DNA from: Prosthecobacter vanneervenii
GTDB lineage: Bacteria; Verrucomicrobiota; Verrucomicrobiia; Verrucomicrobiales; Verrucomicrobiaceae
Reading direction: 5' to 3'
Length of the DNA: 64,000 nucleotides
Assembly (NCBI RefSeq): GCF_014203095.1
Contig: NZ_JACHIG010000002.1
Span: 115,695 to 179,694, forward strand
In this document: piece by piece, positions 24,897-29,715 of the stretch
How positions within the stretch are numbered: the first letter of the stretch is position 1
Layout: each line of letters begins with the position of its first letter
Made by a program: the position numbers and the translations under genes
The notes under the pieces: model-generated
What the model saw: only the letters and a program-made list of their open reading frames with translations
Databases searched by the model: none
Told to the model about the DNA's origin: nothing

Positions 24897-27800
24897 ATGA
24901 GCTTTTCGTTTAGAGGTTTGTTTCAGCGCGGAACCGGTTCTCATGAACCGGTGCAGGGCGTTCAGCAATACTTCACAGGAGCACATAATCAGAGGGTGGC
25001 GGGTCCCGGAACACAAAGTCTTCCCCCCATGCAAGCCTCCTCAGTTCCACCATTTTCAGCAGGCGCTTCTCCGTTTCAGATGAGCGGGGGACCGCTGTTT
25101 AAAACTGCAGGCAATGAACCTGTGGCAGCCCCGCCGATCAATTCCACCACAGGCCTTTCCCCATTTAGCGTAGCCGGAGCCACCCCCACCAATGCACCTT
25201 TGACGGTCGGAGACGTGATCCAGCAGTTGCCTCCCGAAGTGGTGCGTGGGGGAGCGCTGCCTATGGAGCAGCCACTCTCCCTGCCCCCGGCGCTGGTGGA
25301 AAATGCACTGCGCAGCGGACAAGCTGCGCTACCGGTTTTTGAGCTTTATCGAGTCTGCCCGGCCATGTTTCAGGTGCCCATCTCGCCACAGGATCCGCGT
25401 ATGGTTTCACTGCCAGCAACGAAGCTGCCCGGCCTGATCGCCCAGGCGCGTGAGAGCGCTCCTGCACCACACCCTCCGGCCATGCCGCCAGGAAGCTCTG
25501 CTGCTGCCGGCTCTCCTTTCTCGCTGGCGCAGCCTGTGCCCACGCCAAATTCACCTGCGGGATCACCTTTTCAAATGCAGCCGCCCGCGAGCCCGTTCTC
25601 TCCAGTGGCCCGCATGCCTGAGCCAGCTGGTGGCAGTCCTTTTTCTATGCCGCAGGCTGGAGGTGGCAGCCCCTTTTCCATGACTGGAGGGGACGGAGCC
25701 TCGCCCTTTGGGCAGCCTGCGCCGGGTGCACCGGCGGGTTCTCCCTTTTCTCTGGGTGGGGCGAAGGCATCCCCCTTTGAAGCAGCCTCCACAGCGGGGA
25801 GTCATGCAGGTGGCTCGCCATTTTCCACTGCAGCGGCGCCTCTGCCAGCGCCGGGAGCGCCTGCGGGCTCTCCATTCTCCCTCGGAGGTTTTCTGACTGC
25901 AAGCCAGCATGGTGAGGCACCTTTACCAAAGCCTGCACCTGGCGCCCCTGTGGGTTCACCATTCTCCCTAGGTGGCAGTTCGCCTTTTGGCACAGCATCT
26001 ACGCCACAACCAGCGCCGGGAGCACCGGCGGGTTCCCCCTTCTCTCTCGGGGGTGCCGCAGGTGGGTCTCCCTTCGCCGCAGTCTCGACATCCCAGCCTG
26101 CGCCGGGTGATTCGATGGGTTCGCCGCTCTCCTTCGGCGGTGGTGCTGGCGGCCCAGCTTTCAGCGCGGCTGCCGAGCCTCAGCCCGCGCCGGGTGCCCC
26201 TGCAGGTGCACCTTTCTTGATGGGTGGTGGCGTTGGTGGTTCGCCGTTTGGTGGAGCCTCGACAGCGCCTGCGAGTTCGCTGTTTGGAGCATCAGGCGCA
26301 CAGCCACTGATGGGCGCAGCACAGGCCTCATCAGCCTTTGTGTCCGGCCATCAGGCGAATTCATCTTTTGGCAGTCCGCCGGCCTCTCAACCGCCGCCCG
26401 CTCCGGAAAAAGTAGAGCTTGGTCAGGTTTCGATCTCCCAGCTTTTCACACCGCAGTCCCAGGCGCAGGCCTCTACGCCCGCCGATGCCGCAGGCGCACC
26501 CGCCATGCCGTTTGGCTCTCCTTTTGTGTCCGCAATGAAGGAAGCAGCTCCTCCGTCGGCTGAGCCTGGAGCCCCTGAGCCACCCGCCATGCCAGTCGGG
26601 CTCTCCGCCTTTGCCACCCTCTCCCCACAGCCGACTGTGCAGGCGCCGATGCAGTTTGCCCCGGCACCCGCAGCCAATCCTTCCGGCTTTGCACCGCTGA
26701 CGCTGCAGCCTGCTGCAACTGCTGCACCCTCTGCCTTTGGCGCATCCGCCCCTGCCCCTTCCGGCTCCACGGCCAGTGCGCCGGGCGTGGTGAAGCTGGG
26801 CTTTGCCGCAGTGCTCAATGGCCGCAGCATGGAAGAACTGGGCTTCAACCCCAGCACCCTGCCCGCATGGATCTCCACCAATGTTCCTGCGCATGTGCTC
26901 AAAGAGCAGATGGCCACCGGCAACTTTGTGGTGGAGCTGGGTCTGCTGATCGATGGGCTGACGGACATTGGCTTCCGCAACACACTTGGAAGCGCAAAAC
27001 GCGACTGCAGCATCAGGCTGCCGCAGAATGAAGTTTTCCATGCACTGACCCAGGCTGGCAGCAGCGGGGCACCGGCCGCTGCGCAGACCATGCCTGCTGG
27101 GGTGCTGCCCACGGCACGCCCCACGACAATGCAGGTGGTGCCCGCCCAGCCACAGCCTGGCGCTCAGGTAGTACAGTCCCTCTTTGGCCAGCCTGCAGCA
27201 GAGCCCAAACCTCAGCCCGCAGCAGAGCCTGTGTCAAAAGCTGCGCTCAATCCCTTCGGCCAGAGCCAGCAAACACCAGCCCCGATCACAGCCTTTCGTG
27301 CCATGCCGCCCGCAACAGCGGCCCCAGCGCCTTTCAGCTTCCCGTCTGCACCGACACTGGCTCCAGCCACTCCGGCAGCAGGATTTGGCTTCTCGACACC
27401 GCCCGCGCCGGCAGAACCGCCGCCTCCTGCCGTCAGCCAGGCTCCTGCTGGCATTTCCCTTTTTGGAGGATCATCTCCATCTCCCGCAACCCCCGCCGCT
27501 GCGCCGCAGCAGCCCCTGCCCGGTGCATTCCAGAATTTCGGAGCTCCCCCCACTGGATCAATTAAACCGTTTGATCCTTTTGCTTCATCATCCGCAGGTC
27601 CTCTGCCTTCGTCCAAAATCGGCCTGCCAGCAGATTCCGCCTCTGGTTTCAGCAGCGCGCAGCTTCTGGGGCAGGCGCCTGCATCTCAGTCTGGAGGATC
27701 ACTCTTTGCACCAGCCCCCGAGACCAAGCCCGCGACTACGAGCGGCATGTTTGCCCCGGCGCCTGAGATCAAGCCGCAGGGCGCAACAAGTCTCTTCGCG

Positions 27801-28499
27801 CCCTCTGCAGCACCCGAAAACAAGCCGGCCACCACCAGCCTTTTTGCCACCCCCTCTCCTGCGCTGCTACAACCCACCGCAGCCATGGCCCCTGCACTGG
27901 AGGAGATCCCATCCTTTTCGCCCGCCCCCATGACTGAGGCCAAGGCGGCCACGCGCAGCCTGTTTGGCTCCGGCGCGGGCAGCATCCCGCTTTTCTCAGA
28001 TCCTCCTCCCACGCCCAAGAGCAGCGCCGCGCCTGCACCGGCCCCGGCACCTGCCAAGCCTGCGCCCCCCAAGACCTCTTACCTGGGGCTGGCCCCGCTG
28101 GACACCCAGACGGACCAGCTGCTGCTCCGCGCGCTGCTGGCCACCGAGGAGAAGCTGGACGCCCAGCGCGTGGTGGAAAAGCTGGGCTCCATGCCCGGAC
28201 TGAGCGCCTGCGTGTGCCTGAGCGGCGCACGCGTGCTGAGCCATGCCAACCTGGCCAGCGTCGAGGCCGCCCAGTTTCAGCAGCAGGCGCCGGAGATCGC
28301 ACGCCAGCTGCGCGGACTGGTGCCGCTGATCGGCATCGACGGGGCGGAGACCTTTACCCTGAACGCCGGCGGCCGCCTGCTGACCTTCTGCTTCCCTGGA
28401 GAGAGCATCGTGGGTGTGCTGCACGATGAAGAGCCCAGCACGGGCATGCGTGACAAGATCACCCTCATCGCGCGCGAGCTGGCGCGCATGCTGGGCTGA
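24897..28499 (+). CDS. Giant FG/SPF-repeat low-complexity protein with C-terminal Roadblock/LC7 domain, 1200 aa
   Basis: I read six parts. (1) A short N-terminus MSFSFRGLF. (2) A folded segment at about 101-184 (PLTVGDVIQQLPPEVVR to VSLPATKLPGLI). (3) A disordered Pro/Ala/Gly/Ser stretch with some eighteen SPF triplets; six imperfect units of the type PAPGAPAGSPFSLGG lie between about 272 and 450. (4) A second folded segment at about 629-715, patterned like the first (SGQ/TGN, then Phe, then LP). (5) A second disordered stretch with SLFG, NPFG, SLFAPAP and similar FG-type motifs; FG dipeptides total about fourteen across the protein. (6) A Roadblock/LC7-like domain at about 1065-1200 (TDQLLLRALLATEEKLDAQ, VLHDEEPSTGMRDKI). 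No signal peptide or membrane helix. An MglA-type GTPase gene follows. Roadblock domains act on Ras-like GTPases; the low-complexity function is inferred. Not an FG-nucleoporin homologue by any visible ancestry. Confidence 0.75.
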   Translation: MSFSFRGLFQRGTGSHEPVQGVQQYFTGAHNQRVAGPGTQSLPPMQASSVPPFSAGASPFQMSGGPLFKTAGNEPVAAPPINSTTGLSPFSVAGATPTNAPLTVGDVIQQLPPEVVRGGALPMEQPLSLPPALVENALRSGQAALPVFELYRVCPAMFQVPISPQDPRMVSLPATKLPGLIAQARESAPAPHPPAMPPGSSAAAGSPFSLAQPVPTPNSPAGSPFQMQPPASPFSPVARMPEPAGGSPFSMPQAGGGSPFSMTGGDGASPFGQPAPGAPAGSPFSLGGAKASPFEAASTAGSHAGGSPFSTAAAPLPAPGAPAGSPFSLGGFLTASQHGEAPLPKPAPGAPVGSPFSLGGSSPFGTASTPQPAPGAPAGSPFSLGGAAGGSPFAAVSTSQPAPGDSMGSPLSFGGGAGGPAFSAAAEPQPAPGAPAGAPFLMGGGVGGSPFGGASTAPASSLFGASGAQPLMGAAQASSAFVSGHQANSSFGSPPASQPPPAPEKVELGQVSISQLFTPQSQAQASTPADAAGAPAMPFGSPFVSAMKEAAPPSAEPGAPEPPAMPVGLSAFATLSPQPTVQAPMQFAPAPAANPSGFAPLTLQPAATAAPSAFGASAPAPSGSTASAPGVVKLGFAAVLNGRSMEELGFNPSTLPAWISTNVPAHVLKEQMATGNFVVELGLLIDGLTDIGFRNTLGSAKRDCSIRLPQNEVFHALTQAGSSGAPAAAQTMPAGVLPTARPTTMQVVPAQPQPGAQVVQSLFGQPAAEPKPQPAAEPVSKAALNPFGQSQQTPAPITAFRAMPPATAAPAPFSFPSAPTLAPATPAAGFGFSTPPAPAEPPPPAVSQAPAGISLFGGSSPSPATPAAAPQQPLPGAFQNFGAPPTGSIKPFDPFASSSAGPLPSSKIGLPADSASGFSSAQLLGQAPASQSGGSLFAPAPETKPATTSGMFAPAPEIKPQGATSLFAPSAAPENKPATTSLFATPSPALLQPTAAMAPALEEIPSFSPAPMTEAKAATRSLFGSGAGSIPLFSDPPPTPKSSAAPAPAPAPAKPAPPKTSYLGLAPLDTQTDQLLLRALLATEEKLDAQRVVEKLGSMPGLSACVCLSGARVLSHANLASVEAAQFQQQAPEIARQLRGLVPLIGIDGAETFTLNAGGRLLTFCFPGESIVGVLHDEEPSTGMRDKITLIARELARMLG

Positions 28500-28514
28500 G
28501 AACTGGCGCGCAAT

Positions 28515-28548
28515 CTGCGGCGGTGCTGCGGCACAGGCAGTCTTTTTT
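28515..28548 (+). terminator. Hairpin plus T-run between the FG-repeat gene and the GTPase gene
   Basis: CTGC (28515-28518) pairs with GCAG (28537-28540), and GTGC (28523-28526) pairs with GCAC (28531-28534) over a TGCG loop. TCTTTTTTCTCTTCCC follows. This is a weak intrinsic terminator or attenuator. It would lower GTPase transcription relative to the giant protein unless the GTPase has its own promoter. Confidence 0.45.
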
Positions 28549-28586
28549 CTCTTCCCTTCCATACGCCCGTTTCCTAAAATACCGCC

Positions 28587-29240
28587 ATGCCCAGCGTCAA
28601 CCACGAAGACCGCACCGTGAGCTTCAAGATCGTGTACTGCGGCAGTCCGCTGAGCGGGAAGACCACGAACCTGCAGCAGATCCACGCCAAGCTGGACCCC
28701 ACTGGACGGAGTGATCTGGTGTCCCTCTCCACAGCGCAGGACCGCACGCTGTTCTTTGACTTTCTGGCAGTGGAGGCAGACGCGCTGCCGGGGTACAAGA
28801 CGACCTTTCACCTCTACACGGTGCCGGGGCAGATCACGTACAATGCCACCCTGCAGCTAGTGCTGCGCCAGGCAGATGGCGTGGTCTTTGTGGCGGACTC
28901 CCAAATGGACCGCCAGCGGGACAACCTGCAGTCCCTGCAAAGCCTGGAGGCCAACCTGCGCATGAACGGCAGCGAATTGGAGCGCCTCCCCATCGTGCTG
29001 CAATACAACAAACGTGACCTGCCCAACGCCGCGCCTGTGGAGTACCTGGAATATCTTTACAACAACCGAGCCACGCCGTTTCTGAGCTTTGAGTCGGATG
29101 CGCGCACCGGGCGCAACGTGCTGGCCACGCTGAACGCCATCTCCCAAGCGGTGCTGCACCAGTTCCGCCAGAGGGCCGCCCCGCACGACAGCAGCGGTGC
29201 GGCGAAGGAGATGCGGACCCAGGAGCTGGCTGCGGCGTGA
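28587..29240 (+). CDS. mglA: MglA-type small Ras-like GTPase, 217 aa
   Basis: The P-loop CGSPLSGKTTN (G1), the stretch AQDRTLFFDFLAVE, the TVPGQ switch that replaces DxxGQ, VVFVADSQMDR, and LQYNKRDLPN (G4, NKxD) together match Myxococcus MglA and its bacterial relatives almost motif for motif. SFESDARTG stands at the G5 position. MglA cycles between GDP and GTP and marks the leading cell pole in gliding bacteria, with the Roadblock protein MglB as its GAP. Here two Roadblock-like proteins flank it, so it is probably part of a GTPase switch. No motility genes are near, so its output is unknown. Start at the ATG at 28587 after GCCGCC. Confidence 0.88.
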   Translation: MPSVNHEDRTVSFKIVYCGSPLSGKTTNLQQIHAKLDPTGRSDLVSLSTAQDRTLFFDFLAVEADALPGYKTTFHLYTVPGQITYNATLQLVLRQADGVVFVADSQMDRQRDNLQSLQSLEANLRMNGSELERLPIVLQYNKRDLPNAAPVEYLEYLYNNRATPFLSFESDARTGRNVLATLNAISQAVLHQFRQRAAPHDSSGAAKEMRTQELAAA

Positions 29241-29313
29241 AATGCCACGCTGAGCCGCCACCGGATTTCTTTTCTGCGACCGCCCCTCTCCACGCCACCG
29301 CGCACCGTCTCTC

Positions 29314-29715
29314 ATGGAACTCGCCACGCTCGTGTCATCCCTGCCCGCCGTCATTCAGGCTGCCATAGCCGATGACGCCGGACGCCTGCTGGCCTGCGCG
29401 GGAGAGGGTGCGCCGCCCAACGCCGCCGTGCTGGTGCTGGCCCATGCCACGCTCTCGGCTGCCGCAGAGCTGGGCCGCCGCTCTGACAGCGGCGAGTGCC
29501 TGGAGATCGTGCAGCAGCATGAAAAGGGTGTTATCTACCTGCATGCGCTGCCGCGACATCGCCTGCTGCTGGTGCACTGCCACAGCCCGGCCCCCATCCC
29601 TGCCTTGCGCGATGCCTGTGCCCGGCTCATGCCCTCTGCCTCCCCGCCGCTTAAGACGGCCCCCATCCCTGCCCTGGACCTGGGCGATGCGCTGCATGCG
29701 GAGCCGAGGTGGTGA
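29314..29715 (+). CDS. Small Roadblock/LC7-like protein (MglB-like), 133 aa
   Basis: The sequence alternates strands and helices in Roadblock order: VIQAAIADDAGRLLACAG, AAVLVLAHATLSAAAELGRR, SGECLEIVQQHEKGVIYLHAL and HRLLLVHCHSPAPIPALRDACARLM. The long Ala-rich helix between two sheet halves is typical. It lacks the first helix usual in MglB, and its tail (115-133) is Pro-rich. It lies 73 bp after the mglA-like gene and could be the GTPase's activating protein or a subunit that pairs with the Roadblock end of the giant protein. Assignment is by pattern only. Confidence 0.65.
   Translation: MELATLVSSLPAVIQAAIADDAGRLLACAGEGAPPNAAVLVLAHATLSAAAELGRRSDSGECLEIVQQHEKGVIYLHALPRHRLLLVHCHSPAPIPALRDACARLMPSASPPLKTAPIPALDLGDALHAEPRW

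Follow-up and report, generated by a model that had tools for sequence, protein, structure and literature searches.

A Phe-motif-rich scaffold with a predicted Roadblock C-terminus, encoded directly upstream of MglA in Prosthecobacter vanneervenii and its relatives

Three tandem genes of Prosthecobacter vanneervenii encode a 1200-residue scaffold that carries a predicted Roadblock domain at its C-terminus and two copies of an undescribed domain between Phe-rich linkers, an MglA-family small GTPase, and a second, small Roadblock protein. They lie on the + strand of a window of 64,000 nucleotides on contig NZ_JACHIG010000002.1 (G000:C2:115695-179694 of a 6.66-Mb genome) and are separated by intergenic gaps of 87 and 73 bp. 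A preliminary description, made from the letters of the DNA, had reported this three-gene row, and all three open reading frames (ORFs) are indeed in place. The scaffold reads, in order, N-terminal motif, D1, Phe-rich linker, D2, Phe-rich linker, Roadblock C-terminus; the features of the locus, in window coordinates, are these:

24897..28499, + strand: scaffold protein, 1200 amino acids (aa) (ORF; orthologs in 55/68 family genomes)
24897..24935, + strand: conserved N-terminal motif MSFSFRGLFQRG (ortholog alignment)
25188..25448, + strand: D1, first copy of an undescribed domain of ~90 aa (hidden Markov model (HMM) over orthologs; AlphaFold2 predicted local distance difference test (pLDDT) 90)
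25449..26777, + strand: linker 1, Pro/Ala/Gly/Ser-rich, with 16 of the 18 SPF motifs (motif count)
26778..27059, + strand: D2, second copy of the D domain (HMM; outgroup copies)
27060..28079, + strand: linker 2, Pro/Ala-rich, with LF[GAST] motifs and the conserved KPFDPFAS and GFSSAQLLGQ (ortholog comparison)
28080..28496, + strand: C-terminal Roadblock/LC7 domain (AlphaFold2 and Foldseek to Myxococcus xanthus MglB; Pfam match in ortholog L149)
28587..29240, + strand: MglA-family small GTPase, 217 aa (gene 2; sequence homology)
29314..29715, + strand: second Roadblock protein, 133 aa, in the mglB position (gene 3; Robl_LC7 match)

The Roadblock assignment of the scaffold comes from structure prediction and from an ortholog. 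By sequence, the whole scaffold matches nothing in Pfam and NCBIfam even at E 10, and its C-terminus has no match in Pfam, NCBIfam or the PDB. An AlphaFold2 model of the C-terminus, built from 41 orthologs (pLDDT 85.5; predicted template modelling score 0.80), has the element order alpha-beta-beta-alpha-beta-beta-beta-alpha, as in MglB, and its best PDB fold match found by Foldseek is M. xanthus MglB (6izw_C, E=1.5e-4, prob 1.00). Sixteen of the 18 PDB fold matches with E < 0.001 are M. xanthus MglB chains, and the next matches of the C-terminus are to p14/MP1, Ragulator and archaeal Roadblocks. At the same place, the ortholog at locus L149, from another family, exceeds the Robl_LC7 cut-off (35.4 bits, E 9e-9); the scaffold C-termini of L155 and L072 score under it, and the window copy and its near orthologs do not reach it. 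A Roadblock-like C-terminus had been proposed in the preliminary description, and the proposal is borne out, because the modelled fold is that of a Roadblock, nearest MglB, and L149 lies above the Pfam cut-off.

The other two proteins are of known kinds and were correctly named at the outset, the GTPase by its homology and intact catalytic residues and the small Roadblock-like protein by its Pfam score. Gene 2 matches a solved MglA (5ymx) at E 8e-54, and retains the P-loop, the intrinsic Arg finger R53, TVPGQ (T78, Q82) and NKRD; no other MglA was found in the genome. Gene 3 scores 24.1 bits against Robl_LC7 (cut-off 23), is the only match to that family in the genome and gives MglA an MglB homolog as a partner within the genome; canonical MglB fills the gene-3 position in the outgroup loci L072 and L075. 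The gene-3 protein also has a conserved C-terminal tail, LxDALHAEPxW (window 29680-29712), a possible binding motif.

The pairing of scaffold and GTPase extends across the class. Within the family, a profile of the scaffold C-terminus matches 55 of 68 genomes, 43 of the 47 good ones, and all genera (11/11), a distribution over genomes and genera that argues against a chance product. In a survey of 384 genomes of the class, the scaffold C-terminus was present in 107, MglA in 97 and both in 55; of these 55 genomes, 54 have the scaffold gene immediately before mglA in the same orientation, with a median gap of 37 bp (co-occurrence Fisher p 3e-12, relatedness ignored). Among sampled genomes with mglA and without a scaffold profile match, a long ORF occupies the same place in 14 of 14, with weak Roadblock scores in 12. 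Gene 3 is less constant: it adjoins the operon in 25 of 38 family loci, is absent beside it in 13, and is undetected anywhere in G218, G066, G442 and G412, where scaffold and MglA are still there. The trio, put forward in the preliminary description, is thus conserved as neighbours in its scaffold-mglA pair and only partly in its third member, whose dispensability in parts of the family had been missed. In genus g5 of sister family f2, which has small genomes, scaffold and MglA matches are absent from all those listed; other f2 genera retain scaffold relatives.

Outside the family, the operon has a further neighbour, likewise overlooked earlier. A PilB/GspE-type ATPase gene stands immediately upstream of it in 12 loci from 8 other families, and MshEN and T2SSE domains were confirmed in the upstream ATPase of L072. 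Relatives do not keep the window's upstream genes beside the operon, so we take the operon itself to be the unit.

Beyond its Roadblock end, the scaffold contains two conserved blocks (aa 98-184 and aa 628-721) that the preliminary description, correct about the motifs and the Roadblock end, did not recognize as copies of one domain. Alignment of D1 with D2 by hhalign within the family alone gave a probability of just 4.9%; outgroup copies settled the matter, with a direct match between copies a and b of L075 (E 3e-5), and the D copies, all taken together, align as a single family. The AlphaFold2 model of D1 reaches a pLDDT of 90. Its fold has no match in the PDB (best E 1.3), D1 has no Pfam match, and a PDB sequence search with the D1 profile gave nothing meaningful; in the window's genome, the D domain was found in this scaffold only. 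A natural minimal version occurs at L040-L042, where the scaffolds adjoining mglA have 315 aa and retain the N-terminal motif, D1 and Roadblock but lack D2 and Phe-rich linkers. At the other end of the protein, scaffold N-termini of other families are basic/aromatic (e.g., MLKFLKKLF or MVSFFRLLFKR), from which we infer that this short end of the scaffold may tether it to the membrane. For the window copy, a strongly amphipathic helix at the N-terminus was considered and rejected, its hydrophobic moment being unremarkable (86th percentile).

The linkers, which composition alone marks as disordered in type, hold 57 Phe in ~880 residues, with a median spacing of 15 and 6% charged residues. The motif counts given in the preliminary description for the 1200-aa protein, 18 SPF and 14 FG, are exact, and they can be set against composition-preserving shuffles of the scaffold's linkers: SPF is expected 1.5 times, [ST]PF occurs 18 times against 2.1 expected (standard deviation, sd, 1.4), LF[GAST] 9 times against 1.3, and FG 14 times against 6.5 (sd 2.3, p 0.006). 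The motifs most in excess are therefore Pro-Phe and Leu-Phe, not FG as such. The excess is found again in almost every long ortholog of the family, whose full-length scaffolds have about 4-21 [ST]PF, versus 0-2 in most outgroup scaffolds, which come from loci with the same genes and have Pro/Ala-rich linkers with 0-5 FG. In many outgroup scaffolds, a D domain is followed by the motif [ED]TPFxxxAxED, and the SPF arrays of the window may be an expansion of it.

Large [ST]PF arrays are seen in the window's order only. In sister family f2, the scaffold is short and its D domains are undetectable, yet 7-9 [ST]PF occur in L137, L139 and L140. At L140:3910-5350 and L076:3363-4680 (- strand), the f2 scaffold adjoins a protein that resembles MglA but has its P-loop, TVPGQ and NKRD broken, possibly a pseudo-GTPase. 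Judged from these comparisons, the large Phe arrays seem to have arisen within the order, and they are retained even where the GTPase looks dead. Their restriction to the order and their retention beside a dead-looking GTPase argue that the arrays have some function, and one other than the central role of the class-wide operon.

Starting from what is observed, namely the arrangement of the genes, the family membership of genes 2 and 3, the Roadblock fold predicted for the scaffold end, the duplication of D, the motif enrichment, the conservation, and the pilB linkage outside the family, we posit, with our confidence evenly divided, that the operon encodes an MglA-based polarity/pilus-control module particular to this lineage, in which the regulator forms part of a multivalent scaffold of disordered type. 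In such a module, MglA would alternate between GTP and GDP states, and its cycle would be controlled by the Roadblock products of the two flanking genes, namely the small gene-3 protein and the scaffold C-terminus, whether in the sense of a GTPase-activating protein (GAP) or of a guanine nucleotide exchange factor (GEF). The two Roadblocks would probably form a complex with it as a mixed assembly, as MglB and MglC do, with the scaffold Roadblock acting alone where gene 3 is missing. The remainder of the scaffold would set where and with what the switch acts: the conserved short N-terminus could tether it, possibly to the membrane, the two D domains could serve as docking modules, and the [ST]PF-rich linkers could present numerous weak contacts to a partner or to further scaffold copies and, being multivalent, gather the switch at a single site, for example a pole. 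Ancestrally, the target would most likely be the type IV pilus extension ATPase that heads the operon in many relatives, and control of the pilus may extend to P. vanneervenii.

Several observations weigh against this proposal. The scaffold Roadblock is far diverged from MglB, with no sequence-level match for the window copy, and possibly makes no contact with MglA. In the window's family, the operon lacks a linked PilB gene; the window's genome holds several PilB-type ATPases, and a PilB tree reveals among them no clear ortholog of the operonic PilB, the nearest relative having 43.6% identity to it and an unsure placement on long branches. Finally, related scaffold C-termini without a recognizable active MglA occur in other families. 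At L073 (f15) and L074 (f11), related C-termini have no adjacent MglA, and TolQ/ExbB-like genes follow directly. The 43.6% relative of the operonic PilB is one of a tandem of PilB/GspE-type ATPase genes at G000:C2:346777-349659 (L079, L080).

The scaffold Roadblock could instead be a dimerization or MglA-docking module on the effector or GEF side, as in RomR/RomX or Ragulator, leaving gene 3 as the sole GAP. Canonical MglB in the gene-3 position of outgroups, the much greater divergence of the scaffold Roadblock, and the use of Roadblock domains as GEF or scaffold parts in Ragulator (PMC9481161) all fit this division of labor, but a sole GAP would not be expected to leave the operon's side in 13 of 38 family loci and to escape detection in four genomes in which scaffold and MglA persist. 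We consider this explanation unlikely, if a serious contender.

Other explanations concern the linkers. The [ST]PF/LFG linkers and D domains could together form a GTPase-gated condensate at one cell site, with its own regulator domain built in and with the arrays derived by expansion of an ancestral TPF motif behind the D domains, which we view as quite improbable. The preliminary description proposed a GTPase switch whose regulator is attached to a long Phe-rich region resembling FG nucleoporins; the Roadblock fusion and the conserved neighborhood are supported, and the nucleoporin analogy gains no particular support, the excess lying in [ST]PF and LFG rather than FG. The linkers do share with FG nucleoporins their length, low charge and Phe motifs, and the density and spacing of Phe, the strong enrichment of [ST]PF and LF[GAST] and its recurrence in the long orthologs of the family would suit a condensate, or a selective barrier, acting as a gate for the GTPase. 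However, a different motif dominates here and is tied to a Ras-like switch, FG itself is just 2-fold above shuffles, and nothing points to a transport receptor or compartment; moreover, other-family orthologs with the same genes and domains have few Phe motifs, so a Phe-rich phase is unnecessary for the conserved function. A nucleoporin-like barrier, for which nothing specific speaks, is a possible but very unlikely proposal. That only the folded domains matter, with the linkers as low-complexity filler, close to neutral, in a genome rich in GC, is a most doubtful account: the linkers vary widely in sequence and length, are Pro/Ala in composition and are dispensed with, along with D2, in the 315-aa orthologs, but their Phe is conserved at 0.90-0.96 among near relatives versus 0.44-0.60 for those P, A, G and S residues that are not part of SPF (partly an aligner effect), the motif excess recurs in nearly all long orthologs, recent DNA slippage as the source of the SPF array was rejected with just one weak tandem repeat (2.2 copies) in the SPF region, and f2 keeps its [ST]PF in short proteins.

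The proposed pilus-control module has partial counterparts elsewhere. With the MglA/MglB/MglC and RomR system of M. xanthus (PMC12719032, PMC9481161), it shares MglA catalytic residues, more than one Roadblock protein and a partly disordered region, which in M. xanthus is that of RomR. There, MglB, MglC and RomR form one complex (PMC12719032), and RomR is a protein of its own, encoded away from mglA according to the survey by Wuichet and Sogaard-Andersen (PMC4316618); here, in contrast, the Roadblock is fused to a disordered-type scaffold that has two D domains and Phe motifs and shares an operon with mglA. PilB of M. xanthus is recruited by MglA and SgmX (PMC11580455), and the control of PilB by MglA, SgmX, FrzS and SopA (PMC11580455) has the MglA pathway and PilB in common with our loci, but the PilB link here is one of gene order in other families only, and the scaffold is unrelated. 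The same survey places Verrucomicrobia in MglA Group 5, calls the neighborhoods of this group widely variable, and notes PATAN proteins encoded close to certain genes of Groups 1 and 5; its passages on these loci that were consulted describe no scaffold (PMC4316618). HGbRL of Methylacidiphilum is likewise a verrucomicrobial C-terminal Roadblock fusion, from a genome that has an MglA-Roadblock pair too, but it is a globin sensor of 274 aa without a scaffold linker, encoded with a methyltransferase and not in the mgl pair (PMC4476040).

A literature search that covered few subscription papers found no published work on FG repeats or Roadblock scaffolds in Verrucomicrobia and no published description of the fused scaffold, the D domain or the class-wide operon. 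While MglA and Roadblock are known kinds, these three are thus undescribed as far as that search extends. The operon provides a class-wide example of an MglA switch with a Roadblock hard-wired to a large disordered-type scaffold and with a gene-order link to the pilus motor, and it supplies defined parts for asking how bacterial small GTPases reach their place of action and how larger regulators developed from Roadblock proteins. The natural series from few Phe motifs through large arrays to arrays beside a degenerate GTPase is a ready-made experiment on the role of the Phe motif.

A promoter scan of the locus gave predictions no better than shuffles. Downstream, an ApbE-like gene is kept beside the operon only among close relatives. 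In other families, receiver+DUF4388 or FHA+DUF4388 genes adjoin the operon (L155:1168-2232 and L150:1202-2155, both on the - strand, and L142:6383-7075), and these neighbors likely provide signal input.

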